33,258 bases of DNA from assembly GCA_030041985.1 (NCBI GenBank), contig JASIAM010000227.1, positions 1 through 33,258 of the forward strand, in the 5' to 3' direction. Below are positions 4,085 through 19,686 of this stretch, piece after piece (position 1 is the stretch's first letter; every line of letters starts with the position of its first letter). Source of the DNA: Bryobacteraceae bacterium. GTDB taxonomy: Bacteria > Acidobacteriota > Terriglobia > Bryobacterales > Bryobacteraceae. Under the pieces are notes generated by a model. The model saw only the letters and a list, made by a program, of their open reading frames with translations. It was not told the DNA's origin and ran no database searches. A program made the position numbers and the translations under genes.

Positions 4085-4134
4085 AATATGTGTTGTTGTC
4101 CTCTATACAAGACTACATATTGCATACAGGACAA
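4085..4134 (+). promoter_or_regulatory. Two interleaved inverted repeats upstream of TonB receptor
   Basis: The AT-rich leader before the TonB receptor gene holds AATATGT (4085-4091) paired with ACATATT (4115-4121), and TTGTCCT (4096-4102) paired with AGGACAA (4128-4134). Both are perfect 7-bp repeats and they interleave, as in an H-type pseudoknot or two alternative hairpins. The element sits 76-125 bases before the chosen ATG at 4210, in the divergent region shared with the U32 gene. It could be an RNA leader element or overlapping operator sites for a metal-responsive regulator. I could not match it to a cobalamin or other named riboswitch, and no Fur-box-like sequence is evident. Confidence 0.35.
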
Positions 4135-4209
4135 ACGGTCTGCGCTCAAGGTCCTCACAAGAACTTGCTGGAGAGCCGTTGGCCATTGGAGCAACAAGGA
4201 AAACATTTT

Positions 4210-6615
4210 ATGGATTTCGGCGCCACGAACTTTCGAGAGAACCAATGCAGGGAGCGAACAAAATTTTGTGGTGCCGCCCTGCTCGTGGTATTGGGGCTTT
4301 GCTGTCACCCGGCGCGAGCGCAGAGCGCGGCCTCCGTGAGCGGGATCGTGACGGATTCGCAACACGCGGCAGTTGCCGATGCGCCGGTCACGATCACCAA
4401 CCTGGTAACTAAGGAGGCCTATAACGTCCGCACCGATGCGCAGGGCAGCTACGAGGTTAACGGCTTGCCTGCTGGCGAATACCGTATCGACATCAAGGTG
4501 AGCGGCTTCAAAACCGTTCAACTCCGCGGTATCAAAGTTGGTGATTCCGGGGCGGTCACCGAAGACGTCACGCTGGAGGTGGAAAATGCCAGCCAGTCGG
4601 TCAACGTGAGGGCGTTACCGCTAGTAGACCTGAAGAGCCAGGCCGCCGCGCTAACGGGTTTGGTCGAAGGGGTGAAGAGCGAGGACATTGTCTTCACCGC
4701 GCAAGACATCGAAGCCTTGCATCCCAATACGGTCCTCGATGTTTTGCAGACCGTGCCAGGCCTGGAAGTGGATTATCAGGGGCGGCAGTATCCCAACAGT
4801 GTCACGTTGCGTGGCGGCGCGGTTATGGTGGTCGTGGACGGCGTTTATCTCACCCAGGTGGCCCGTCAGTTGGCCCTGTTCCCAGTGCAGTTCATCGAGT
4901 CGATGACCATCGTGCGCAACGCCACGGCGCTCTCGATTGGACCCCTGATGTCTTTTCAATCGAGTGTCAGTTCCACCGGCACTTCGAATGTCGGTGTCCA
5001 GGGTTTCATCATTATCAAGACCAAGCGTTCCTCGGGGCCGGAGGCTGGATTTGTTACCGGCGGTGGCGATTGGCAGACCGCTATGGGAGAAACCTATATC
5101 GGTTCGAGGAGCGGACATTGGGACTATCGCGCCGCCTACTCGTATTACACCACCCAGGGCGCCCCGAGCGCATCGTGGACCATGGGGGAGCGCGATGCCA
5201 CGCTGACCTTCCACGGCGGCTACACCAGCGACAAACTGAACTTCGAGTTCCTATACATCGGTAACCGTGGTTTTCGCGATGACGAAACGCCGGTTTACAA
5301 GGCTCCGCATTGGACCGGGACGGCATACGACTGGTCGATCGTAAACACGCCTGCCCCAGCGTCAGGCTACTTTGACCCCGATGATTTTGATCTGTATAAC
5401 CTGAACCTATCGTATCAGTGGAGTGCAAACAACCGCACCGTGCTGCAGTATGGGTTTGATAATTCCCATATTCTTTCGCCAACCTTGTCTTACGGCAGGC
5501 AAGATAGCACCGAGGAGAATATCAATCTGCAGCACACTTACTGCTTCGCGGGAAACTGCATTACCGGCGGCGGACAGGAAATCAAATTCATTGCTCCGAA
5601 TGGAATAGCACCCAGAGCCAACGCCAAGTCTGCAACCGGCATTGCCGAGGATCGTGTCGATGATGCGCTGTGGAGTTGGTACGCGCAGGATGAATTCAAA
5701 GTGCCGAGCAAGCGGCTGGTCTTCGATGCCGGCATTCGTGGCGACAAGTTGCATCACAACTGGCCACTAGGCGGGACCGAGCCGATCAATGTCTGGGTTC
5801 CAACCTTTTACACTATCACCATGGGCCTTACTTATCATGTGACTGACAGGTTCAGCCTGGCCCCGCGCTACGGCTTCGTGCAATCCTCGCCTCCAATCGG
5901 CTATGTGAGTGTTTCGGGCGCGCCGTTGCTCACTCAGGCGCAGCAGCGGTTCGAATTGGGCCTCGACTATAAGATCAACGAGCATCTCGGAGTCAATTTG
6001 ACGCCCTATGGGTACAAGACCTCCAATGCCTTCACGCAGGCTACGGGTTGCCAGGGTTTTCTTCCAGGCACTTATGTCTTAAACGATTCCCTTGGCAATC
6101 CCGTAGAGTATTGCGTCTCGCCAGCAGGTAAGAACTGGACTTACGGCATCGACACCTACCTAACCGGTCTTATCTACGGACCGCTCAAGTACAATATCGG
6201 TTACGGCTATGTTGAGGAAACTCTTGACGTCAATAACATTGGCATGAGCCACCACTTCCCACACGCCCAGTTGGATTTCCGCAAGACAGTCTATTTTGCC
6301 AACTTCAACATGATCTACGTAGGGCCCAAGTGGTACACCACGCCGTTGACTGGCAACATGCCCATACTTCCCGGATACTTCCCCTGGTACGAATTCGGCA
6401 ACTACGCCAATATCAACGCCAGTGCCGGAGTCAACTTCAAGCTATTGGGTAAGGCGATGACCTTTACTGCCGCCTGCAATAACATGGGCAACAGCCACTA
6501 TATGACAAACACCAGTGCAGGCGGTGGCTTCTCCAATGATTTCGGGGCATTTCCGAACCCCGGCCGCAATTACACGTTTCAACTGGCAGCGAAGATTCTC
6601 GAACCGAAAAAATAG
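4210..6615 (+). CDS. TonB-dependent outer-membrane receptor
   Basis: An 801-residue outer-membrane receptor that would bring a metal chelate (siderophore, cobalamin or similar) into the periplasm using TonB energy. A signal peptide spans residues 1-37 with an ARA-Q type cleavage site. Residues about 42-125 form a carboxypeptidase-regulatory-like beta domain (SGIVTDSQHAAVADAPVTI). The plug follows at about 160-273 (DVLQTVPGLEVDYQGRQ, TLRGG, VVVDGVYL), then an aromatic-rich barrel of about 520 residues. ATG 4210 is chosen over the in-frame ATG at 4090 because AAGGA lies at 4196-4200 and the shorter protein starts directly at the signal peptide. The downstream FecCD permease begins 14 bases after the stop, so this is the first gene of a five-gene uptake operon. 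Confidence 0.9.
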   Translation: MDFGATNFRENQCRERTKFCGAALLVVLGLCCHPARAQSAASVSGIVTDSQHAAVADAPVTITNLVTKEAYNVRTDAQGSYEVNGLPAGEYRIDIKVSGFKTVQLRGIKVGDSGAVTEDVTLEVENASQSVNVRALPLVDLKSQAAALTGLVEGVKSEDIVFTAQDIEALHPNTVLDVLQTVPGLEVDYQGRQYPNSVTLRGGAVMVVVDGVYLTQVARQLALFPVQFIESMTIVRNATALSIGPLMSFQSSVSSTGTSNVGVQGFIIIKTKRSSGPEAGFVTGGGDWQTAMGETYIGSRSGHWDYRAAYSYYTTQGAPSASWTMGERDATLTFHGGYTSDKLNFEFLYIGNRGFRDDETPVYKAPHWTGTAYDWSIVNTPAPASGYFDPDDFDLYNLNLSYQWSANNRTVLQYGFDNSHILSPTLSYGRQDSTEENINLQHTYCFAGNCITGGGQEIKFIAPNGIAPRANAKSATGIAEDRVDDALWSWYAQDEFKVPSKRLVFDAGIRGDKLHHNWPLGGTEPINVWVPTFYTITMGLTYHVTDRFSLAPRYGFVQSSPPIGYVSVSGAPLLTQAQQRFELGLDYKINEHLGVNLTPYGYKTSNAFTQATGCQGFLPGTYVLNDSLGNPVEYCVSPAGKNWTYGIDTYLTGLIYGPLKYNIGYGYVEETLDVNNIGMSHHFPHAQLDFRKTVYFANFNMIYVGPKWYTTPLTGNMPILPGYFPWYEFGNYANINASAGVNFKLLGKAMTFTAACNNMGNSHYMTNTSAGGGFSNDFGAFPNPGRNYTFQLAAKILEPKK

Positions 6616-6629
6616 CTTCAGATAAACCG

Positions 6630-7691
6630 GTGACGCAAGTAAACCAACTCTACTCTGAATCTCCGGCCGCGAGCCAACGCGTATCGCAGTCCCTCGATAG
6701 GGCGATGGCTATGAAGTTTGTGCTTCTCTCTCTTCTTCTGGTTGTGGTGACAGTGGCTTCCGTTGTGCTGGGACGTTATCATATCTCGATTGCCGCGTGG
6801 CGCAGATTTCTTTTGGATCCGAGAAATGGTGACGTCGCAACGGCTGTGCTGCTCAGAGTGCGTCTTCCGCGCATTCTCGGCGGGATCTTGATCGGAGCAG
6901 GTTTATCGGCTTCGGGAGCTGCCTACCAAGGTCTCTTCCGTAATCCGATGGTTTCGCCGGATCTTCTTGGGGCTTCGGCTGGTGCGGGGCTGGGCGCGTC
7001 GGTCGCCATCCTGTTGAATTGCGGCGCGGCGGCTATCCAGGGCATCTCTTTTCTTGCTGGCTTAGGGGCTGTGGGCTTAACCTGTTTTGTGGCCGGCCGG
7101 GTCCGGCGCGGCAACGATCCGGTGCTGGCCATGGTGCTCTCCGGAGTAATGGTCGCATCCATCTGCTCGGCGCTGGTTTCGTTGACTAAGACGGTGGCCG
7201 ACCCCGAGGTGAAGCTGCCCGCAATCACATTCTGGTTGATGGGCAGCCTGGCTTCGATCGACAATACCAACATAGTCTGGCTGTTGGCCCTGATTCCGGT
7301 GGGCATCCTCGTGCTGATGTTCATGCGCTGGAAGCTGAATGTTCTCTCAATGGGCGAGGAAGAGGCGGCATCGCTCGGAGTGGACACGCGCCGGGCGCGC
7401 TGGATTGTCGTTCTCAGCGCGACGGTGTTGACGACGGCCGCTGTGTCTCTATCGGGAATGATCGGCTGGGTAGGCCTGGTGATACCTCATCTGACGCGCA
7501 TGATTATCGGCCCCAACTACAAGGGACTCTTGCCGGCCTCGGTCATACTGGGAAGCGCCTATATGTTACTGGTGGACGATATCTCCCGCAGCGCCACGGC
7601 GGGCGAGATTCCGCTGGGCATTTTAACTCACCTGATCGGCGCTCCTTTCTTCCTTTATCTGCTGGTACGCACGAAGCAAGGATGGGCCTGA
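6630..7691 (+). CDS. FecCD-family ABC permease for metal chelates
   Basis: An inner-membrane permease of the FecCD/BtuC family, 353 residues with about ten hydrophobic segments; two copies would form the channel. Family motifs are clear: RLPRILGGILIGAGLSASG followed by YQGLFRNPMVSPDLLGASAGA near residues 79-120, and IGWVGLVIPHLTRMIIGPN with EIPLGILTHLIGAPFF toward the C-terminus. The start is a GTG at 6630; the true start could be a little further in, since the first 25 residues are polar and not family-typical. Its 3' end overlaps the ATPase gene. Substrate class is siderophore, heme or cobalamin; the sequence alone does not decide which. Confidence 0.92.
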   Translation: MTQVNQLYSESPAASQRVSQSLDRAMAMKFVLLSLLLVVVTVASVVLGRYHISIAAWRRFLLDPRNGDVATAVLLRVRLPRILGGILIGAGLSASGAAYQGLFRNPMVSPDLLGASAGAGLGASVAILLNCGAAAIQGISFLAGLGAVGLTCFVAGRVRRGNDPVLAMVLSGVMVASICSALVSLTKTVADPEVKLPAITFWLMGSLASIDNTNIVWLLALIPVGILVLMFMRWKLNVLSMGEEEAASLGVDTRRARWIVVLSATVLTTAAVSLSGMIGWVGLVIPHLTRMIIGPNYKGLLPASVILGSAYMLLVDDISRSATAGEIPLGILTHLIGAPFFLYLLVRTKQGWA

Positions 7692-8527
7692 TGCTCCGAT
7701 TAGAGTCGGTCGCCTGTAGTTATGGCGCTAAGGAGGTAGTGAAGGGAGTTTCATTTACGCTTGGGGTCAGGGATGTAATGTGTCTGCTCGGAGCAAACGG
7801 CTCTGGCAAGACGACTCTGTTTCGGGCGATTCTGCGCTTTCTGCCTCTGACACGGGGCGAGGTTTTTGTAGATGGAGAGTCGATCGCACAATGGCCGCGG
7901 CGCAAGTTAGCGCGCACGATCGCCTACGTGCCACAGGCGCATACTCCTCCTTTTGCGTTCAAGGTGCGCGACGTGGTGCTGATGGCACGAACAGCGCACA
8001 TGAATAGCGTGGGCGCTGCCAAGCGCCACGATTACGAAATTGTAGAGCGAGCGCTCGAATCGATGGGGATTACGGAGTTGGCGGAGACAGAATACACCCA
8101 GCTCAGCGGCGGCGAGCGGCAGATGGTGCTTGTGGCCCGCGCACTGGCTCAGGAAGCAAAGCTTCTGGTGATGGACGAGCCCGCTTCGGGTCTCGACTTC
8201 GGCAACCAGATCCGCATGCTGACGGAGGTCAGGCGGCTTTCTGAGCGCGGTGTCTCGGTGTTGATTACCACTCATTCGCCAAATCACGCATTTCTTTGTG
8301 CCTCGCGGGTAGCAGTAATGAAAGCCGGCCGGCTGCTGGCCTGTGGCGCACCCGAATCGGTCCTGACTAGCAGTTGTCTGGAAGAGGCCTACGGAGTTCC
8401 GCTGCAGGTCATTGACATCGGTAATGGCAACCATACTTGTGTTCCGGCGGCAAGTAGATTACGACCCCAGATTGGCTGGGAGGGGTCTCCTGATCTTCCC
8501 AGGAGATGGAGTGACATGAGTATATGA
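7691..8527 (+). CDS. ABC transporter ATPase for metal chelates
   Basis: The ATPase partner of the FecCD permease, 278 residues. Walker A GANGSGKT is at 34-41, the Q-loop at Q82, the signature LSGGERQ at 138-144, Walker B LLVMDE at 158-163 and the switch histidine at H195. The ATG at 7691 is preferred because it forms a TGATG overlap with the permease stop and has AAGGA eight bases upstream (7678-7682); an in-frame ATG at 7682 would add only MGL. The C-terminal extension after about residue 245 is polar. The gene ends in an ATGA overlap with the binding-protein gene, so the cluster is translated as a coupled unit. Confidence 0.93.
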   Translation: MLRLESVACSYGAKEVVKGVSFTLGVRDVMCLLGANGSGKTTLFRAILRFLPLTRGEVFVDGESIAQWPRRKLARTIAYVPQAHTPPFAFKVRDVVLMARTAHMNSVGAAKRHDYEIVERALESMGITELAETEYTQLSGGERQMVLVARALAQEAKLLVMDEPASGLDFGNQIRMLTEVRRLSERGVSVLITTHSPNHAFLCASRVAVMKAGRLLACGAPESVLTSSCLEEAYGVPLQVIDIGNGNHTCVPAASRLRPQIGWEGSPDLPRRWSDMSI

Positions 8528-9585
8528 AGAGATATCTTAGCGCCGTACTCGCGGTTCTCGCGCTTCCGGTAGTTATCTTCTGCGCTTTCGGCGCTGGCTC
8601 CAATGAGCACGAAGCCGGTGGAACGGTCACGATCACCGACATGCTGGGCCGCAAGGTGACAATGCCGAAGACGATTCACCGGGTTCTCGCGCTACACCCG
8701 ATTCCCACCGGGCTGCTGGCAATCATGGCGCCGCAGGAACAGGTGAGCGTCGACTCGTACTTCCATCGGTCGCTCGAAACCCACGAATTTGAGTACACTG
8801 CCGCCGAGTACAAACGGCTCAGCAGTTTGCCCGTGACTGGCGTCTACTTCAACGGCCTGAGCACCGAACAGATTTTGGTGCTGCACCCGGACGTGGTCAT
8901 CACGATGCGCGGTGACACCAACATCGAGAAGGAACAACAGCAGACCGGTATCCCGTTCTTCGCGGTTTCCAAAGCGCCCACATCCAGCTACGCGACCACG
9001 ATTCGTCTGGTCGGGCAGATCGTCGGCCAGCAGAAGCGAGGGGACGAGATGGCCGACTTCTGGGCCAAGACCACCCAGTCGGTGCAGGACAAGGCCGCAA
9101 AAGCCAGCCACCATCCGACGGTCCTGTACACCGGGAAGAACGGCAATATGACCGGCACACCCGGCAAGAACACCGTCTTCGGCTCGACGCTGGACACCGC
9201 CGGCGGACAAAACGTCGGTGACCAACTACCGCAAGCGTTTGCCGCGAGGGAGAGCAACACAGTCAGCATGGAGCAGGTCGCCCAGTGGAACCCGGACATA
9301 ATCATCGCCTCCGGAGCCGAGGCCAAAAACAAAATCATGACCGATCCGCAGTGGCGCATGCTCAAAGCCGTCGAAGCCAGGCGCGTCTATGTTCCACGGG
9401 CCTTCGCCGGCCTGGACGGCCTTCAGGCTGTGCTTGGCATGGTCTGGGTTCAGGGCGTCCTGCTCGAGGGAGATGACGCCGCGGCCGAGGCACACCTCAC
9501 GTCAGTAATGCAGAGTTACTACAAATTATTCTACGGCCACACGCTCACCGCCGCGCAGATCGCGCAGCCAGCGGGGGAACGATGA
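8524..9585 (+). CDS. Periplasmic metal-chelate binding protein
   Basis: A 353-residue substrate-binding protein of the Peripla_BP_2 (FepB/BtuF) type that would deliver the ligand to the FecCD permease. A signal peptide covers about residues 1-24; a Cys is present (VIFC-A), but the residue before it is Phe, so a lipobox is doubtful. The mature protein opens with VTITDMLGRKVTMPKTIHRV, typical of the family, followed by the STEQILVLHPDVVIT segment and the C-terminal lobe with QVAQWNPDIIIAS. It starts by ATGA overlap with the ATPase and ends by ATGA overlap with the flavin monooxygenase gene. It is the only binding protein in the cluster. Confidence 0.92.
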   Translation: MKRYLSAVLAVLALPVVIFCAFGAGSNEHEAGGTVTITDMLGRKVTMPKTIHRVLALHPIPTGLLAIMAPQEQVSVDSYFHRSLETHEFEYTAAEYKRLSSLPVTGVYFNGLSTEQILVLHPDVVITMRGDTNIEKEQQQTGIPFFAVSKAPTSSYATTIRLVGQIVGQQKRGDEMADFWAKTTQSVQDKAAKASHHPTVLYTGKNGNMTGTPGKNTVFGSTLDTAGGQNVGDQLPQAFAARESNTVSMEQVAQWNPDIIIASGAEAKNKIMTDPQWRMLKAVEARRVYVPRAFAGLDGLQAVLGMVWVQGVLLEGDDAAAEAHLTSVMQSYYKLFYGHTLTAAQIAQPAGER

Positions 9586-10643
9586 CTCCGGCGATGCGAT
9601 TCGGCCTTTCCGGTTCGCTGGGCGGGCTGGAGGCACACAGCTATGCCGCCACGTTGGAACGGGCGCGGGAAGTGGAGCGGCTCGGCTTCGCGGGAATGTG
9701 GTTCAACGAGGAGCACTTCGGCCGGCCCGATACGCCGCAGGAACGGCGCATCCTCTCCCCGGTCGTGCTCGCCATGGCGGTCGCGGCCGCGACGACGCGA
9801 TTGCGCGTGGGCTTCTCCGTTCTGCTGGTCCCTCTGCATCACCCGCTGCGCCTGGCCGAGGAGATCGCGACTCTTGATGTACTATCCGGGGGGCGCGTGG
9901 ATCTGGGGGTATCCCGCGCGAACAGCGGGCGCTATGGCGTCGCGTTCGGCTATGACAAGCAAACCGGCGCGACCCTCGAATACTGCCTGGACACAATGAT
10001 CGGATACTGGGCGGGCAAGCCGCTGACCATCGGCGATGTGGACTACGCCGTGTCACCTGCTCCTACCCAACAGCCGCATCCGCCGATCTACGTCGGTGCG
10101 TATAGCGAGTCTACGATTGAGTGGGCGGCGCGCCGCGGCTACGCGACCATCCAGCACGGCATCCAGTCCCCGGCATCCCTGCACCGCTGCCTGACCAGCT
10201 ACGCCGCACACGGCGGCGACCTCTCCCGAGTGCCCGTCGGGCGCTTCTGCTACGTAGGAGAATCCGATGCTCAAGCCCGCAGAGATGTCTGGCCGATCGC
10301 CGTCCGCCAAGCCGAGCGGCTGCGCGGTATCGGCATCTGGCGCCGTGGTGATCAGGTGATGACCGAAGCCGACCTCGAGCCGGAGCGCTTCTATCACGAA
10401 ACCGCGATCATCGGCGGACCGGACACAGTGGCTGGACGCATCGCCCACCTGCGCGACACCTATGGTATCCGTTACATGAACCTGCTCTCTTCCTTTTTCG
10501 GAATCATGCCCAACTACCTGCTCCGGTCCTCCCTCGAACTGTTCGCACACGAAGTCATGCCCCGCTTCGCCCGGACCCGGTTGGGCGTGCGGGCAGCGGC
10601 CGGGCAGCCGGCGCCCGCCGCACCCGAGGTCCTCAATCGGTAG
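9582..10643 (+). CDS. Luciferase-like (LLM class) flavin-dependent monooxygenase
   Basis: A 353-residue TIM-barrel oxidoreductase of the bacterial luciferase-like family, using reduced FMN or F420. Family features are MRFGLSGSLGG at the start, EVERLGFAGMWFNEEHFG, TTRLRVGFSVLLVPLHHPLRLAEEIATLDVLSGGRVDLGVSR and a C-terminal IGGPDTVAGRIAHLRDTYGI. The ATG overlaps the stop of the binding-protein gene (ATGA), so it is the last gene of the uptake operon. Chelate-attacking enzymes (EDTA and nitrilotriacetate monooxygenases) belong to this superfamily, which suggests, by inference only, a role in breaking down the imported chelate to free its metal. A hairpin follows the stop. No export signal is visible, so it acts in the cytoplasm. 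Confidence 0.9.
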   Translation: MTPAMRFGLSGSLGGLEAHSYAATLERAREVERLGFAGMWFNEEHFGRPDTPQERRILSPVVLAMAVAAATTRLRVGFSVLLVPLHHPLRLAEEIATLDVLSGGRVDLGVSRANSGRYGVAFGYDKQTGATLEYCLDTMIGYWAGKPLTIGDVDYAVSPAPTQQPHPPIYVGAYSESTIEWAARRGYATIQHGIQSPASLHRCLTSYAAHGGDLSRVPVGRFCYVGESDAQARRDVWPIAVRQAERLRGIGIWRRGDQVMTEADLEPERFYHETAIIGGPDTVAGRIAHLRDTYGIRYMNLLSSFFGIMPNYLLRSSLELFAHEVMPRFARTRLGVRAAAGQPAPAAPEVLNR

Positions 10644-14043: not shown

Positions 14044-14062
14044 GTGACCTGTTTAGGGTCAC
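14044..14062 (+). promoter_or_regulatory. Palindrome just before the Crp/Fnr-family gene
   Basis: GTGACC (14044-14049) and GGTCAC (14057-14062) form a perfect 6-bp dyad around a 7-base centre, ending 11 bases before the chosen ATG at 14074. It covers an alternative in-frame GTG (14044). The TGACC halves resemble Crp/Fnr-family half-sites, although the spacing is not the classical one, so autoregulation is possible. It could also act as an mRNA hairpin. The stretch 13846-14043 before it shows no gene and no clear sigma70 promoter. Confidence 0.4.
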
Positions 14063-14073
14063 AATGGAAATCA

Positions 14074-14769
14074 ATGGACGGCGTTAACCCCAAGGTTTCC
14101 GCGATTCTCAAAGGGGCACCGCTGTTTGCAGCGCTCACGGACGCAGAAATCGAGTCCTTGGCGGCGCGAACCGTCGTGCGATCCTACGCGGCTGGAGAAT
14201 TGCTGTTTTCCGAGGGAGATCCCTGCGCTGGCTTATATCTGATCGCGTCCGGCCGCGTCCGCATCTACAAGGCATCGCCCAGTGGGAGGGAACAGGTTTT
14301 GGCCGTGGAAGGCCGCGGCGCATCGATCGCCGAACTTCCCGTATTCGACGGCGGAAACTATCCTGCTTCGGCTGCCGCGTTGGAGCCGGCGCACTTGTTC
14401 TTCATCTCTCGCCAGGACTTCCGAAACGTCTGCCTCCAACATCCGGAACTGGCGCTGAAGGTGCTGCAGGTCGTCGGCGGCCGTCTGCGGCGGCTGGTCG
14501 GCATCATCGAGGAGTTGTCGTTCACCACCGTTCGCCATCGGCTGGTTTCCTGGCTGCTGCGGCAAGCCAAAACGCAAGGCGATGGCGGATCGGTTGTCCT
14601 TTTGAGTCCGAGCCAACAGGAACTTGCTTCGCAAATCGGAACCGTGCGGGAACTCGTTTCGCGCAACCTGGCGCGACTGCAGGCGCAGGGCCTTATCAGG
14701 ATCAATGGCAGAGAAGTCACCATCCTCGACGAAGCCGGACTCGATGCGGATTTAAATTCCACGTTCTAG
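14074..14769 (+). CDS. Crp/Fnr-family transcriptional regulator
   Basis: A 231-residue regulator. Residues about 10-125 form the cyclic-nucleotide-binding-type beta roll (GELLFSEGDPCAGLYLIASGRVRIYK), a long dimerisation helix follows, and a helix-turn-helix lies near residues 175-200 (SQQELASQIGTVRELVSRNLARLQ). The N-terminal Cys cluster of oxygen-sensing FNR is absent; only two isolated Cys are present. By context, in front of ric and nnrS, it is probably a Dnr/NnrR-type nitric-oxide-responsive activator. The ATG at 14074 is chosen over GTG 14044 because the latter lies in a palindrome and would add ten residues not typical of the family. A matching operator lies between this gene and ric. 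Confidence 0.88.
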   Translation: MDGVNPKVSAILKGAPLFAALTDAEIESLAARTVVRSYAAGELLFSEGDPCAGLYLIASGRVRIYKASPSGREQVLAVEGRGASIAELPVFDGGNYPASAAALEPAHLFFISRQDFRNVCLQHPELALKVLQVVGGRLRRLVGIIEELSFTTVRHRLVSWLLRQAKTQGDGGSVVLLSPSQQELASQIGTVRELVSRNLARLQAQGLIRINGREVTILDEAGLDADLNSTF

Positions 14770-14781
14770 GCTAGTTTCGGG

Positions 14782-14800
14782 TTGTGACTTTAGTCATTGA
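14782..14800 (+). promoter_or_regulatory. Crp/Fnr-type operator upstream of ric
   Basis: The site reads TTGTGACTTTAGTCATTGA. It contains a perfect dyad TGACT-TT-AGTCA (14785-14796) and fits the Crp consensus TGTGA-N6-TCACA with a perfect left half and a 3 of 5 right half. It lies between the regulator gene and ric, 45 bases before the ric ATG, where an activator or repressor of the Crp/Fnr family would bind. Confidence 0.5.
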
Positions 14801-14844
14801 GGGTTGGTCGCACGTGCCTTAATCTCAGGGCAGGAAAAAAACCA

Positions 14845-15588
14845 ATGACATTCGACAAAAATCAGACAGTGCGGGAAATCGCGATCAATAACCCTGCGAC
14901 CGTGCGCGTTTTCGAAAAATTCGGAATCGACTACTGCTGCGGCGGAAAACGGACGCTTCATGAGGCCTGCGCCAGCATCAACACGCCGGTTGATCGGGTG
15001 ATGGAAGCGCTCGATGAATTGGAGGAGAACGGCATCGCGTCCGAAGACCCCTGGACCGGCACTTCTTTGGCGGACTTAACGGCGCATATTGTCCGGCGCC
15101 ACCATAGTTACGTGCGGGAGGAGTCTCCGAGGATTGAGGTGCTCCTTGAAAAGGTCATGAACCGCCACGGCGAAGCGCACCCTGAGCTCGGCGCCATCCA
15201 GGAGACCTTCGCCGCGCTCTCGCATGAGTTGTTCGCGCACATGATGAAGGAGGAACGCGTCCTCTTTCCGTTTGTGGAGGCGATGGAGGCCGCGGCGCGC
15301 GCCAACCAGCCGGAGCCACGTGGATGTTTCGCTTCGGTTGAGATGCCGATCGCCTGTATGCTGGCGGATCATGACGATGCCGGGGTGCTGCTCGCCAAGA
15401 TGCGGCGTCTGTCCGGCGGCTATCGCGCGCCGGAAGGAAGCTGCCCCACCTATCACGGGCTCTATCAGGCGCTCGAAGAATTTGAACGCGATCTTCATCA
15501 GCACGTTCATTTGGAAAATAACATTCTGTTTCCGCGCGCGGTGGAGATGGAGAGGTCCCTCAAGGAGACGGCTCATGTCTCCCATTAA
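14845..15588 (+). CDS. ric: RIC (YtfE/ScdA/DnrN) iron-sulfur cluster repair di-iron protein
   Basis: A 247-residue cytoplasmic protein that repairs iron-sulfur clusters damaged by nitric oxide or peroxide. The N-terminal ScdA domain carries FEKFGIDYCCGGKRTL with Cys31-Cys32. The hemerythrin-like domain follows, and all six di-iron ligands expected from E. coli YtfE can be placed: H87 (or H86), H132, E136, H176, H220 and E224, with spacings matching the E. coli protein. The ATG at 14845 has AGGAAA upstream and starts the protein at the ScdA domain; an in-frame GTG at 14797 would add 16 unrelated residues. Its stop overlaps the start of the nnrS-like gene by 14 bases. A Crp/Fnr-type palindrome precedes it, implying NO- or anaerobiosis-dependent expression. 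Confidence 0.95.
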   Translation: MTFDKNQTVREIAINNPATVRVFEKFGIDYCCGGKRTLHEACASINTPVDRVMEALDELEENGIASEDPWTGTSLADLTAHIVRRHHSYVREESPRIEVLLEKVMNRHGEAHPELGAIQETFAALSHELFAHMMKEERVLFPFVEAMEAAARANQPEPRGCFASVEMPIACMLADHDDAGVLLAKMRRLSGGYRAPEGSCPTYHGLYQALEEFERDLHQHVHLENNILFPRAVEMERSLKETAHVSH

Positions 15589-16894
15589 TATTTCGCCGCG
15601 GATCGAGGATAATGCATCGTTCATCCGGCGCGAGAGGCAGCTACAGCGGTTGGTCACGGCTTATATCGTCGCGGGCCTGCTGTTTATGCTGCTTCCGGGC
15701 ACGTTCCTGGGTGTGTGGAATTTGCTTTCGATCAGCGCCCAGCACACCGTGGACACCCTTTCGCCCGCGTGGTTGCAGGCGCACGGGCATGCGCAGATCT
15801 TCGGCTGGTTGGGAACATTCATTCTGGGCATCGGCTTCTACTCGCTTTCGAAGATGGGGAACTTGGCGCCGTTCGCGGTCTCCCGGGGGTGGCTGTCCTT
15901 TGGATTGTGGACCGCAGGAGTCTCCTTGCGGTGGATCGCAAACATTACCGGCTGGGAATGGCGGGGATTGCTGCCGCTCTCAGCGGCATTCGAACTGGCC
16001 GGCTTCCTCCTTTTCTTTGTCACCGTGATCAGGCATAAGCCGGCGTCCCTGTCCGGTCCGCCGCGGAAGAAGGACGCTTGGATGATCGTAGTCATCGGGG
16101 CGACCCTTGCCTTCCTCGCGACGCTGCTGGTGAATTTCGGCGCGACCATCTATGTTTCCAAATACGGTGACTCACCGGCCGTATCCTTCCGGTTCGACCA
16201 AAGGCTTCTCGTGCTTCCGACGTGGGGTTTTCTGGTTCCCACTGTTTGGGGTTTCAACGCCCGGTGGCTGCCGACCTTCCTTGGAATCAGGTCTCCGCTC
16301 GCAAGGCCCTTATACGCAGCGATGCTCACCGCGTGGGCCGGGATTGCGATGATGTTGAATGGTTATGTGCTGTACTCAACGATGGTTCTTTCCGTAGCCG
16401 CGATCCTGGCCATTTCCGCACTACGCATCTTCAAGCGGCCCGTGCAGCCGGCAAAGGTCAACGGCGTTCATCACAGCTTCCCGATTTTTATCCGAATCGC
16501 TTATATATGGTTACTTGCGTCGGCACTGTTGTCCGTCGCCGCGGCCCTAACCGATCGGGCGGGAGGAGTCTGGGGAGCCTCGCGGCACGCCCTGACCGTT
16601 GGTTTTCTGGCAACCATGGTGTTCTCCATCGGCCCCAGGATTCTCCCGGCGTTTTGCGGTTCGCGAATTCTCTTCAGCCCGAAGTTGATGCTCCTTTCAC
16701 TGGTCTTCCTGAACATCGGTTGCCTGTTGCGCGTTTGCTCGGAGATCATGGCCTATGAAGGTTACGCCAATCACGCCTGGTCCGTGCTACCGGTGTCGGC
16801 CGTCATTGAGCTTGCGGCCGTGACTATATTCGCACTGAACCTGGGGTGGACCTTCATGCGCCCACCGGCTCACCTCATGGAAGCGGCCCGCTGA
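15575..16894 (+). CDS. nnrS: NnrS-family membrane protein
   Basis: A 439-residue polytopic inner-membrane protein with about 12 hydrophobic segments. NnrS is a heme- and copper-containing protein that relieves nitrosative stress, often controlled by NnrR or Dnr. Here an HGHAQIFGWLGTFILGIGFY motif near residues 70-89 (H70, H72) resembles the His-rich helix of the family and of heme-copper oxidase subunit I relatives, and RHALTVGFLATMVFSIGPRILPAF in the C-terminal half matches the NnrS signature. ATG 15575 is chosen for its AAGGAG (15562-15567) and because it begins directly before the first membrane part; the frame is open upstream but overlaps ric out of frame. A heme-copper-oxidase-like relative is the alternative. 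Confidence 0.75.
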   Translation: MSPINISPRIEDNASFIRRERQLQRLVTAYIVAGLLFMLLPGTFLGVWNLLSISAQHTVDTLSPAWLQAHGHAQIFGWLGTFILGIGFYSLSKMGNLAPFAVSRGWLSFGLWTAGVSLRWIANITGWEWRGLLPLSAAFELAGFLLFFVTVIRHKPASLSGPPRKKDAWMIVVIGATLAFLATLLVNFGATIYVSKYGDSPAVSFRFDQRLLVLPTWGFLVPTVWGFNARWLPTFLGIRSPLARPLYAAMLTAWAGIAMMLNGYVLYSTMVLSVAAILAISALRIFKRPVQPAKVNGVHHSFPIFIRIAYIWLLASALLSVAAALTDRAGGVWGASRHALTVGFLATMVFSIGPRILPAFCGSRILFSPKLMLLSLVFLNIGCLLRVCSEIMAYEGYANHAWSVLPVSAVIELAAVTIFALNLGWTFMRPPAHLMEAAR

Positions 16895-16900
16895 GGACGT

Positions 16901-18568
16901 ATGATTGCTTTCGATGCAACACACAAAGCTGTTCACTATCCGCTCGACCGCCGGTTTCGTATCTGGATTCGGCCATCCATCCTGATCGGAGCCGGCATTG
17001 CGATTCTAGCTTTGATTGCCGCGGCCTGGATCCAAGTTGGCGTGATCGGCATGCCGCGGATTCCACCGGTTCCTCAGATTTATCCGAACAACTTTGCCGG
17101 GCCACATGGATTCCCGCTTTGGGTTCGGTACTGTCATTTCTTCAATTTCTTTTTCGTAATGCTTCTGATCCGCAGCGGCCTTTCGATCTTGATGGATCAT
17201 CCGCGGCTGTATTTTAATGACCATTGCACTCCCGGAAGCGAATGGGTCCGTTTTACGCCGCTCGAAGTTCCTCGCGATCGAATTTGGACCGCCAAAGACG
17301 ACGCCCGCTATATTTCTCCGGTAATCGGCACTCCTGGATACCGTCACACGATCGGCATCGCGCGGATCTGGCATTTCATCGTGGTCCACGGATTCATCAT
17401 CACGGGCGTTTTCTTCATTGCCATGCTTTTTGCGACCCAGCAGTGGAGGCGTTTGGTGCCAACGTCTCCGCTGGTGCTGGTGCAGGCATGGAATACCTGG
17501 GTGCACTACGCGACGTTTCACATGCCCGCGGAGCCGAACGGATTTTACGGCTACAACGCCTTGCAGCAGATCGCCTATTTCGTGGCGGTTTTTGTGTTCG
17601 GCGTGCTTGCCATCCTAACCGGCATCGCGATGTCACCGGCAGTGGTGAACCGGTTTCCATGGTACGCGAAGATATTTGGGGGAAGGCAGTCGGCCCGGTC
17701 CATTCACTTCCTTACCATGCTCGGCTTTCTAGCGTTCTTAGTGGTGCATGTGACTCTAATCGTGATGACCGGCTTTCGAAGGAACATGAATCACATTGTC
17801 ATGGGCGCCGATGATCAAGAGCGTCTGGGTATGCTGCTGGGCTTTGCAGGCATTGGCCTGGTGATCCTTTCGTGGATCGCGGCGCACTACCTGTCTTGGT
17901 TCCACCCCCGCCTATTGCAGCATACGCTCAAGTCCGTAACCTATCCAATGCAGCTCCTTACGCTCAATCGTTTGGCCCCGCAGCAGAAATATGCCGAGGA
18001 CGAGATCTCGCCGTACTTCTGGCCAAATGGAAAGATGCCGGTCCGCGACGACTGGAAGCGCATCGCGGAAGGCAGCTTCGAGAGCTTTCGGCTCAAGGTG
18101 GGAGGCCTGGTGGAGCGGCCGGTTGCGCTTTCCCTTGCCGATCTCGAGAAACTCGGAGAGGTCGAACATATCACCATGCATCACTGCATCCAGGGATGGA
18201 GCGGCATCGCCAAATGGGGCGGCATACCCATGAAGGCGCTCATCGATCTGGTGCGCCCAAAGCCGGAGGCCGCCGCGGTTGCCTTCTTCTCTTTCGGTGA
18301 AGCTCTCTACGGCGGACCCTATTATGACACGCAGAGCCTGGAGAATGTTTTGAAGCCACAGTGTCTGCTAGCCTCGCGGATGAACGGGCAACGGCTCCCG
18401 CTGGTATACGGGGCGCCGTTGCGGCTGCGCGTCGAGAACCAGCTTGGCTACAAAATGGTCAAGTGGATCGAACGCATTGAGTTCATACAGTCCGAGAAGC
18501 TGCTGGGAAAAGGAGAAGGCGGCAAGAACGAGGACGATGAATACTTCGATTTGCTGCCCAACATCTGA
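16901..18568 (+). CDS. Cytochrome-b membrane domain fused to sulfite-oxidase-family molybdopterin domain
   Basis: A 555-residue fusion. Residues about 20-335 form six likely membrane helices with heme-b-type histidines, including H158, H163, H269 and H283 (HFLTMLGFLAFLVVHV has the 14-residue His spacing of b561-type cytochromes). Residues about 385-530 form a sulfite-oxidase/YedY-type molybdopterin domain, with the Mo-ligand Cys429 in HHCIQGWSGIAKWGG. The protein would pass electrons between the quinone pool and the Mo centre. There is no Tat signal; with a basic N-terminus and six helices the Mo domain would lie in the cytoplasm, unlike periplasmic MsrP. It starts six bases after the nnrS-like stop and overlaps the HPP gene (TGATG). 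The substrate is unknown; nitrite, nitrate, sulfoxide or sulfite are all possible. Confidence 0.85.
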   Translation: MIAFDATHKAVHYPLDRRFRIWIRPSILIGAGIAILALIAAAWIQVGVIGMPRIPPVPQIYPNNFAGPHGFPLWVRYCHFFNFFFVMLLIRSGLSILMDHPRLYFNDHCTPGSEWVRFTPLEVPRDRIWTAKDDARYISPVIGTPGYRHTIGIARIWHFIVVHGFIITGVFFIAMLFATQQWRRLVPTSPLVLVQAWNTWVHYATFHMPAEPNGFYGYNALQQIAYFVAVFVFGVLAILTGIAMSPAVVNRFPWYAKIFGGRQSARSIHFLTMLGFLAFLVVHVTLIVMTGFRRNMNHIVMGADDQERLGMLLGFAGIGLVILSWIAAHYLSWFHPRLLQHTLKSVTYPMQLLTLNRLAPQQKYAEDEISPYFWPNGKMPVRDDWKRIAEGSFESFRLKVGGLVERPVALSLADLEKLGEVEHITMHHCIQGWSGIAKWGGIPMKALIDLVRPKPEAAAVAFFSFGEALYGGPYYDTQSLENVLKPQCLLASRMNGQRLPLVYGAPLRLRVENQLGYKMVKWIERIEFIQSEKLLGKGEGGKNEDDEYFDLLPNI

Positions 18569-19212
18569 TGGGGGATCTCGATTCGCCTGCCACTCGGGTT
18601 GCCGGCCGGGAGCGCGCCGGGCCTGATCACGTTCGCCTGTTGCTCGAACGGCTCCGTCTCAATTGGTTGCTGCAGCGCTTTCCGCCGCGGCTGGTGCGGG
18701 CGCTCTATGTATTTGTGAATAGCTTCGTTACGATCGGCGCCCTTGCACTATTGGCGCTGGTAAGCCGCAATCCGTTTGTGTTTCCGTCGCTCGGACCGAC
18801 GGCATATCTACTCTTCTTCTCTCCGCGCGCCAAAGCCTCCAGTCCGCGCAACACGATCTTGGGTCACGCGATCGGGCTCCTATGCGGCTATGGAGCGTTC
18901 GTTGTCACGGGGGCCGGTAGCTTGCCATTCGGCGGGCATACCGGCATCTTCTGGCCACGAATCCTGGCGGCGGCTCTGTCACTGGCGGCCACAGGGGCAT
19001 GCATGGTTCTTTTCGAAGTCAGCCATCCGCCAGCCGGCGCCACCACTCTGATCGTGTCACTCGGAATCATTTGGCGCCCACGCGAACTGGTCATCATCGA
19101 AATTGCGGTGCTGCTGCTCGTTATCCAGGCCCTGATAATCAATCGCCTTGCCGGCTTGTCTTACCCATTGTGGAATGCCCCTACGGACAGCCCAATCGAA
19201 GAGTGCCGGTAA
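18568..19212 (+). CDS. HPP-family membrane protein, possible nitrite carrier
   Basis: A 214-residue inner-membrane protein with four to five helices. The family motif SHPPAGATTLIVSLG is at residues 152-166 and FPSLGPTAYLLFFSP near 72-86, both typical of HPP proteins. Members from cyanobacteria and plastids transport nitrite, which fits a place after ric, nnrS and the Mo enzyme; this is inference from family and context. The ATG overlaps the stop of the fusion gene (TGATG), so the two are coupled. The N-terminal 40 residues are charged and cytoplasmic. It is the last gene of the cluster; a decayed TetR gene lies on the other strand at its 3' end, and no clear terminator hairpin was seen. Confidence 0.85.
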   Translation: MGDLDSPATRVAGRERAGPDHVRLLLERLRLNWLLQRFPPRLVRALYVFVNSFVTIGALALLALVSRNPFVFPSLGPTAYLLFFSPRAKASSPRNTILGHAIGLLCGYGAFVVTGAGSLPFGGHTGIFWPRILAAALSLAATGACMVLFEVSHPPAGATTLIVSLGIIWRPRELVIIEIAVLLLVIQALIINRLAGLSYPLWNAPTDSPIEECR

Positions 19213-19686
19213 GTACTCGGATCGAGCCGCTTTTGGGACTAGTTTTGGGGGCACCTCAGCAAGGTTCAGGGCACTCCTGCGAGCCGCCGTGCCTTCATGC
19301 GCCGGTGGACGCCCGGATTTTTCGACCGCGTACTGCTCCAAAGCGTCTCTCTGGCCGGCTTCGCGCAGTTGCCCATCGATGACTAGCATCGATATCCCGT
19401 GGACGACCGCCCAGACGAATCCTGCCATCAGCACCGGGTCGTCGCGGCGCATGAGACCGGCATTCTGCTGATCCACCAGGGAGTCGAGCAGGATTTGGAA
19501 AGCTGTTTTTTCCGGAGAGTAGATGGGGACAGGAACAGCCTCATAGGCAGCGCGATATAGGCCTTGTGTGAGATCGGGATAGTTAGTCCGTGATGTGCGC
19601 GCGCCGGCGACTCTCTCCTGATATCGGGTCTCGGAGTGACTGGCGCTCTGCGATTTCGAGCGTTGCCCGCGAGACGCGGCGCACAC
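19057..19686 (-). pseudogene. TetR-family regulator remnant, DNA-binding domain missing
   Basis: The middle of this minus-strand frame (about 19311-19581) reads as the C-terminal ligand-binding domain of a TetR regulator: YPDLTQGLYRAAYEA, then LLDSLVDQQNAGLMRRDDPVLMAGFVWAVVHGISMLVIDG. The helix-turn-helix that should precede it is absent: the first 35 residues have no such pattern, and no other frame between 19581 and 19740 supplies one. The 3' part runs antisense through the HPP gene, so the original stop is also lost. It is most likely a truncated, non-functional gene. Its position beside the promoter of the Oar-like receptor suggests that it once controlled that gene. Confidence 0.65.

Follow-up and report, generated by a model that had tools for sequence, protein, structure and literature searches.

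What does a membrane-bound molybdenum (Mo) enzyme do among genes that respond to nitric oxide (NO)? The question is raised by a five-gene locus of a Bryobacteraceae bacterium (Acidobacteriota; NCBI GenBank assembly GCA_030041985.1), at positions 14074-19212 of contig JASIAM010000227.1, a stretch of 33,258 nucleotides hereafter called the window. Open reading frame (ORF) and domain checks confirmed five genes at this place, in the order crp, ric, nnrS-like, cytochrome-b/Mo fusion and HPP. Our analyses predict, from residue charges and helix count, that the Mo site of the fusion protein is likely to face the cytoplasm, opposite to that of the related protein Sco3746; an earlier note on this DNA, made from the sequence alone, missed both the lost export signal of the Mo domain and this probable cytoplasmic facing. 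For the locus as a whole, the best explanation, to which we give a probability of roughly 0.38, is a Crp-driven NO-stress operon in which a flipped, quinol-fed N-oxide reductase would work with an HPP nitrite carrier.

In the fusion, a single chain combines a cytochrome b (PF01292) with a Mo domain (PF00174); its parts are placed as follows.

16901..18568, forward strand: putative diheme cytochrome b fused to a sulfite-oxidase-family Mo domain, 555 residues (PF01292 and PF00174)
16973..17044, forward strand: TM1, an extra N-terminal transmembrane helix, residues 25-48 (from the helices of the structure model)
17117..17770, forward strand: cytochrome b core, residues 73-290, with the invariant H79, H158, H269 and H283
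17825..17902, forward strand: TM6, residues 309-334, a hydrophobic helix lacking a Tat motif where the split relatives have their Tat signal
18077..18496, forward strand: Mo domain, residues 393-532 (PF00174, 8.2e-31), with the candidate Mo ligand C429 at 18185-18187

We aligned the window protein with fusions from 55 of 80 loci (L031-L110), which are the best 80 of 199 fusion-related stretches found in a contig scan. H79, H158, H269, H283 and C429 are invariant in all 56 sequences, and the four His residues are probable ligands of two b hemes. The structure model of the fusion (predicted local distance difference test, pLDDT, 79.9; predicted template modelling score, pTM, 0.79) has six long membrane helices, and its residues 67-308 align with FdnI (Z 10.4) and HyaC (Z 9.3). 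The coupling to quinones proposed in the earlier note is supported in that the cytochrome b is of a quinone-linked type. A full fusion is present in 4 of 61 related genomes; in most of the other matches, the cytochrome b and the Mo protein are encoded by separate, neighbouring genes. One fusion copy, at L147 (genome G110), is frameshifted, with residues 1-325 and 322-553 in two frames.

Heme-Mo fusions are known as examples of co-operation between the Sec and the twin-arginine translocation (Tat) pathways, the Mo domain being exported. According to Tooke et al. 2017 (PMC5449189), Sco3746 of Streptomyces coelicolor, a predicted fusion of heme and molybdenum cofactor (Moco) domains, has five helices with its N-terminus inside, reporters fused behind these five helices are exported by Tat, a twin arginine precedes the last helix in the homologues found in that study, and low hydrophobicity of this helix is needed for the handover to Tat.

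We collected 18 Mo proteins outside the fusion clade, comprising 14 from split pairs, three solo proteins and one independent fusion (L005). A strict Tat-like motif is found in 15 of them, and the other three have near misses (TSRRKWL, TRRNWL and KRRKFL), whereas 55 of the 56 fusions, the window protein included, have no Tat motif before the last helix. The peak hydropathy of TM6 averages 2.27 in the 56 fusions (range 1.58-2.64), whereas the helix at that place peaks at 0.92-1.68 in the 17 other Mo proteins, split or solo; the scanned stretches differ in length, and L005 was left out because its peak fell on a cytochrome helix. TM1 is absent from the split relatives inspected, whose cytochromes start near the equivalent of TM2. 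Loop charges differ as well. The mean numbers of lysine plus arginine residues in split (n=19) and fused (n=56) proteins are, respectively, 2.47 and 6.21 in loop 2, 5.32 and 1.86 in loop 3, 0.16 and 2.00 in loop 4, and 3.68 and 1.80 in loop 5 (p < 1e-6 for each contrast, uncorrected for relatedness), means and p values in which the 19 split rows include one truncated fusion, L110 (55% identity). A charge index, calculated as the lysine plus arginine content of loops 2 and 4 minus that of loops 3 and 5, lies below zero in all 18 split cytochromes (L110 left out) and above zero in all 56 fusions. The N-terminus and the C-linker of the fusion are also positive and loop 1 is nearly uncharged, which fits an N-terminus and a Mo domain inside. 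Since the helix count puts the Mo domain on the loop 2 side in both forms, the whole assembly would be turned over.

Alternatively, the orientation of Sco3746 might be kept, the Mo domain reaching the outside by an unrecognised export route. TM2-TM6 and the Mo domain are homologous to those of Tat-exported relatives, and two fusions harbour Tat-like matches that tell against an inverted enzyme, TRRGMI in the linker before TM6 in L061 and SRRALM near the N-terminus in L082; on the same side, the predicted topology rests on charge and helix count and not on experiment. We consider this alternative improbable, in view of the hydrophobic last helix preceded by no Tat motif in 55 of 56 sequences, of a charge swap consistent throughout and of the extra helix TM1. 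Export by Sec is also unlikely, as Mo domains fold with their cofactor before export.

A tree of the Mo domain was made from 52 rows, for which the 56 fusions were thinned to every other sequence. The fusion clade is recovered as a single group (98/97), its neighbour being the further fusions that lack TM1 (94/86). Split proteins, together with L005, a fusion of Tat type, fall on the opposite side (98/89), and Tat-type solo proteins branch outside. Tat export is probably the older state, although the root depends on a distant solo outgroup and is unsure, long branches meeting between this outgroup and the rest. L005, from the same genus (G003), is an independent cytochrome-b/Mo fusion at 488-2260 that keeps an internal Tat motif, SRRKLV, and is a natural control for the non-Tat clade. 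The second non-Tat type (L148 and L149) has no N-terminal TM1. The loop charges of L148 (7, 2, 2 and 2) nevertheless have the pattern of the fusion clade, indicating that TM1 is not the sole route to it; the N-terminus of L148 would need to be outside. A respiratory Mo enzyme may have been inverted in evolution: a Tat-exported heme-Mo pair would have been fused, would have lost its signal, gained a helix and swapped its charges, and would have become an energy-conserving enzyme of the sulfite-oxidase family that reduces its substrate with quinol on the cytosolic side and acts, within an NO-stress operon, with an HPP nitrite carrier, similar to NarGHI but built from unrelated parts. This full scenario is doubtful as it stands.

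The setting of the fusion gene was analysed next to the other features of the locus, which are listed below.

14074..14769, forward strand: crp, Crp/Fnr-family regulator, 231 residues (PF00027 (cNMP_binding) 1.7e-25; PF13545 (HTH_Crp_2) 1.2e-17)
14783..14798, forward strand: Crp-type operator TGTGACTTTAGTCATT, matching the pattern YGACN4GTCR, conserved in ric upstreams
14820..14825, forward strand: -10-like element TAATCT, at a fixed distance from the operator; putative transcription start near 14832
14845..15588, forward strand: ric (ytfE, dnrN), protein of the RIC (repair of iron centres) family with a putative di-iron site (TIGR03652, 228.7 bits)
15575..16894, forward strand: NnrS-like membrane protein with a predicted heme-copper-oxidase fold (relative at L049 over the PF05940 cut-off; structure model)
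18568..19212, forward strand: HPP-family transmembrane protein, of the nitrite-carrier family (PF04982, 88.9 bits)

The five named genes and their tight packing after ric, both described in the earlier note, were retrieved by the ORF and domain checks. The refined starts are ATG codons at 14845 (ric), 15575 (nnrS-like), 16901 (fusion) and 18568 (HPP). The crp-ric spacer of 75 nucleotides contains the operator, ric and nnrS-like overlap by 14 nucleotides, a gap of 6 nucleotides separates nnrS-like from the fusion, and the fusion and HPP overlap by 1 nucleotide. With the operator and the -10-like element upstream of ric and no wide gap downstream, the single transcription unit that had been proposed from ric onwards is supported, and its genes are very likely to be co-regulated. 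On the reverse strand, an ORF for a TetR_C_33-type regulator (19057-19686) converges on HPP and overlaps its 3' end. Further away, positions 4090-9585 of the window encode a TonB-type receptor, a FecCD-type ABC permease and a periplasmic binding protein, an uptake locus of iron-siderophore or cobalamin type.

The RIC protein passes the TIGR03652 cut-off (204.7 bits) and has ScdA_N and Hemerythrin domains, and the HPP protein is well over the PF04982 cut-off (27.2 bits). Nitrite transport is ascribed to cyanobacterial and plastid HPP members. The NnrS-like label stands at the family level only. A PF05940 search at E 0.1 gives no match for the window protein, the source genome as a whole has none either, and the COX1 match of the protein is below threshold (17.9 against 34.8 bits); its relative at L049, 53-54% identical, passes PF05940 (41 against 28 bits). 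The structure model (pLDDT 85.8, pTM 0.87) matches cbb3 CcoN best among PDB entries (TM score 0.71, E 2.6e-7) and also matches cNOR (TM score 0.60). The protein is therefore predicted from this model to have a fold of the heme-copper oxidase and NO reductase type. In 13 aligned NnrS-like sequences, two His columns are invariant (H69 and H337, numbered from the second codon), and the full set of metal-site His residues is not seen. An active NO reductase is doubtful, as the His columns 71, 153 and 298 (12 of 13 sequences) lie outside model helices 6-7, where the second metal of this fold would presumably bind.

Does the fusion belong with these neighbours? By record title, the 80 loci are mostly from Acidobacteriota, with eleven from Verrucomicrobiota, two from Gemmatimonadota and two from Eremiobacterota. 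At least one of crp, ric and nnrS-like is found near the fusion in 27 of the 80, at least two in 14 and all three in 7, counts that are lower bounds since many of the contigs are short. Long flanks are available on both sides in 35 loci, and of these no more than 3 contain crp, 5 ric and 7 nnrS-like. The order of the window recurs in L032 and L052, where the stretch from nnrS to the fusion is ~500 nucleotides longer; that of L032 holds a cupin-like ORF, and nnrS of this locus is in two frames. Other loci have ric-fusion-HPP-nnrS (L036, L051 and L100) or nnrS-fusion-HPP (L046, L054 and L063). A unit unique to the source genome, which had been set beforehand as a refuting finding, is thus rejected. 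The recurrence of the same genes in different orders suggests that their grouping is more than chance and that they are functionally linked, and the minority of loci concerned indicates that the link is loose.

We also surveyed 250 genomes of the class, including the source genome, counting fusions from match tables. A full-length fusion is present in 20 of them (residues 55-555 in G238), partial or broken fusions in three (G142, G230 and G110), and the type without TM1 in two (G169 and G269). HPP occurs in 31 genomes, namely 19 of the 20 with a fusion and 12 of the 230 others, and adjoins the fusion in 18 of the 20 (the exceptions being G001 and G251). NnrS-like proteins (E 1e-25) are found in 15 of 20 fusion genomes against 69 of 230 others (Fisher p 1e-4, uncorrected for relatedness, as in the Fisher test below). 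Six class genomes (G000, G214, G189, G282, G267 and G183) have the ric, nnrS-like, fusion and HPP genes in a cluster. The idea of five genes forming one fixed unit did not survive these surveys, and we replace it with a stable pair, the fusion and HPP.

Such a pair might do an unrelated job, having joined a crp-ric-nnrS operon in some lineages only. Many loci do have the fusion and HPP without ric, nnrS or crp, and a search for ric at E 1e-20 gives nothing in 8 of the 20 genomes that carry a fusion. We regard a chance joining as improbable, because ric and/or nnrS adjoin the fusion in several orders and in more than one family, and because of the co-occurrence of nnrS-like proteins with the fusion in the class survey.

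Other recurrent neighbours of the fusion are Cu-oxidase-domain proteins, which we read as Cu-nitrite-reductase (CuNIR)-like, further NnrS proteins, cupin-like proteins and DUF488. At L043, an NnrS protein over the PF05940 cut-off (8130-9764, reverse strand), with a weak DUF1858/ScdA_N-like match at its N-terminus, adjoins a multicopper-type, Cu-nitrite-reductase-like protein. In Verrucomicrobiota, members of a copper-protein cluster with a long membrane N-terminus lie a few kb from the fusion (L068, 2863-4446; L109, 10701-12266), and the L109 protein carries Cu-oxidase domains and is CuNIR-like by our reading. A small protein with a weak cupin match is found beside the fusion in 16 loci (cluster c3; for example L051, 2458-2862).

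We then considered how the locus might be controlled. The Crp/Fnr regulator holds only two Cys residues and lacks the four-Cys cluster of FNR type. An FNR-type operator, TTGAT-N4-ATCAA, found no support, with matches in 7 of 134 upstream regions against 7.55 in shuffles, and a CRP-type pattern is found in 32 of 134 against 8.55. The pattern YGAC-N4-GTCR is present in 13 of 15 ric upstreams, the window included, as compared with 0.24 of 15 in shuffles. Eight positions are set by this pattern, two of which allow either of two letters, so that the mean of 1.53 bits per base over the site arises partly by construction; the eight positions left free retain a mean of 1.18 bits, against 0.23 and 0.43 in the flanks, which argues for a site conserved against a diverged background. 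A G directly follows the operator in 12 of the 13 ric upstreams, and a -10-like hexamer at a fixed distance has A at its second and T at its sixth place in 12 of 13 each. If this hexamer is a true -10, the operator centre lies 41.5 bp before the putative start, at -41.5, the class II activator position of the Crp/Fnr family. In L048, L089 and L101, divergent ric and crp genes share one operator. The same pattern occurs in 6 of 15 crp, 4 of 9 nnrS-like and 0 of 14 HPP upstreams, and the window site is the sole match to AGTGACTTTAGTCACT at up to 2 mismatches in the source genome. The operator is predicted to be bound by the Crp protein encoded at the locus, and we infer from the targets of this protein that NO is its signal. 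Just upstream of the crp start, at 14044-14062 of the window, an inverted repeat (GTGAC-N9-GTCAC) has half sites like those of the ric operator, with a spacing of 9 instead of 4.

What reaction might an inward-facing Mo site catalyse? The Mo part of the model matches SorA, fungal nitrate reductase and MsrP structures (Z 17-21), SorA sulfite dehydrogenase being the closest (Z 20.7, root-mean-square deviation 2.5-2.8, 179-180 aligned residues; Foldseek 8e-11). This similarity would suit a dehydrogenase that takes electrons from a substrate in the cytosol, for example sulfite, and delivers them to quinone, a transfer that is energetically easy from sulfite, its place in an NO operon being a regulatory convenience. 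We hold this to be improbable. The Mo-co dimer domain that sulfite oxidases possess is absent from the fusion (no PF03404 match at E 0.1, only PF00174 being found there), the flipped cytochrome would put quinone reduction outside at the cost of proton-motive force, and the recurrent neighbours are NO-related rather than sulfur-related.

A second possibility is the repair of S-oxides in the cytosol, in which an inward-facing counterpart of MsrPQ would use quinol to reduce methionine sulfoxide or other S-oxides that arise under oxidative and nitrosative stress, and HPP would carry something else. MsrP is the best NCBIfam match of the fusion, albeit at 69.5 bits for a cut-off of 207, and the best PDB sequence match is 1xdq/1xdy, which we take to be the YedY/MsrP structure. 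MsrP is not known to have a Mo-co dimer domain, which the fusion lacks as well, and the neighbouring genes are stress genes. We nonetheless judge S-oxide repair to be unlikely: the cytochrome part belongs to PF01292, presumably a different type from MsrQ, the cytoplasm is normally served by the thiol-based MsrA and MsrB, and the tight pairing with HPP would be left unexplained.

We favour an N-oxide reductase, on the grounds of energetics, of the HPP pairing and of the company of ric and nnrS. The operon would mount a response to NO or low-oxygen-type stress, under an activator of the Crp family that it encodes itself and that would bind upstream of ric at -41.5. RIC would repair iron centres, and the NnrS-like protein would belong, as a membrane protein with heme, to the NO-response family. 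The fusion would be a quinol-linked membrane enzyme whose diheme cytochrome b, of FdnI/HyaC fold, feeds the Mo domain. Relative to the split, Tat-exported forms, it would have been flipped by the added N-terminal helix and the switch in loop charges, a Sec-type helix replacing the old Tat signal. Quinol oxidation would then take place on the outside of the membrane, with the Mo site in the cytoplasm, an arrangement in which reduction would build proton-motive force, as in NarGHI, and oxidation would not. The substrate would be a small N-oxide reduced in the cytoplasm, the first candidate being nitrite or a related product of NO stress, and HPP would carry nitrite across the membrane. The N-oxide role is a tentative assignment, and the direction of electron flow and the cargo of HPP are both what we infer from the arrangement.

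A number of observations weigh against this NO-stress operon with an N-oxide reductase or qualify its parts. The Z scores of ~10 with FdnI and HyaC are under the caution line of the tool for helical folds (~13) and might reflect a common arrangement of helices; the PF01292 match at sequence level agrees with this type of membrane part. At the promoter, the first place of the -10-like hexamer is T in only 5 of 13 ric upstreams, and a consensus promoter scan did not report TAATCT at 14820..14825; consensus scans gave nothing clear over shuffles for promoters (3 against 2.2) or terminators (7 against 7.0). The operator pattern is present in only 7 of 81 fusion upstreams, many of which have another gene in front, and free-standing fusions are mostly under other control, as judged from these upstream sequences. 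Allowing up to 3 mismatches, the source genome gives 14 operator matches against 35 for the control; a large regulon is thus not supported, and the Crp regulon looks narrow. No crp, ric or nnrS gene is found in the available DNA of 53 of the 80 fusion loci, many of them on short contigs. Of the 66 loci in which 900 bp or more follow the fusion, only 33 have HPP directly behind it, which indicates that the fusion can work without HPP. The association with ric in the class survey is weak (E 1e-20; 12 of 20 fusion genomes against 81 of 230 others, Fisher p 0.051), and a Cu nitrite reductase match is found in only 2 of 20 fusion genomes, one of them over the cut-off. Lastly, the source genome has PF00384 and NIR_SIR matches ~3 kb apart on contig C139, likely an assimilatory nitrate/nitrite pair, so that nitrate/nitrite reduction is not lacking there; a role of the fusion as the only nitrate/nitrite enzyme of this genome is accordingly not supported.

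If the predicted orientation is true, this opposite-facing clade would show how a complex respiratory enzyme can flip, and it would predict changed energetics. Our reading also assigns the HPP carrier and the Mo enzyme, so far an orphan, a position in nitrogen-oxide chemistry that can be tested. By record title, the fusion is found in many soil and peat metagenome-assembled genomes. The fusion and HPP lie side by side in Acidobacteriaceae bacterium KBS 96 (L077) and KBS 146 (L102) and in Silvibacterium bohemicum S15 (L061); their carriage by named strains means that they may be testable in culture. A literature search covering titles and the starts of abstracts found no publication that describes this unit or a non-Tat heme-Mo fusion.

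The nitrosative context put forward in the earlier note is supported by comparison with known NO regulons (NsrR, DNR, NnrR, NorR and HcpR), in which dnrN (that is, ric) and nnrS are core members, with Crp/Fnr-type control in some genomes (PMC1274295). Unlike in those regulons, the operator at this locus is YGAC-N4-GTCR, and the main text of that paper contains none of the terms molybd, COG2041 and HPP.

Among Mo enzymes, the fusion resembles Sco3746 in combining, in one chain, cytochrome b helices with heme-ligating His residues and a C-terminal Moco domain. It differs from the five-helix Sco3746, with its Tat motif and its Moco domain outside, in having six predicted helices, no such motif in 55 of 56 sequences, a hydrophobic last helix, loop charges reversed relative to the split relatives and a Mo site that is probably inside. 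As motif and predicted topology fail, we do not file this clade as a Sco3746-type member and regard it as a variant with the opposite predicted orientation. MsrPQ (YedYZ) likewise has a sulfite-oxidase-family Mo domain with a membrane heme partner linked to the respiratory chain, and this partner is of another family than the cytochrome part of the fusion. Unlike the fusion, MsrP is a separate Tat-targeted periplasmic protein, and MsrP and MsrQ are named as distant separate homologues of the Sco3746 family in PMC5449189.

Through its membrane part, the PF01292 region, the fusion aligns with FdnI of formate dehydrogenase-N and HyaC of hydrogenase 1. In those two enzymes the cytochrome works with a separate catalytic subunit in the periplasm, and its orientation is opposite to that proposed for the fusion. 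In sulfite oxidase and eukaryotic nitrate reductase, the Mo domain is followed by PF03404, unlike in the fusion. With NarGHI the fusion would share the oxidation of quinol outside and a Mo site inside, although the Mo subunit of NarGHI belongs to the dimethyl sulfoxide reductase family and has iron-sulfur clusters, whereas that of the fusion is a sulfite-oxidase-family domain within a single chain.

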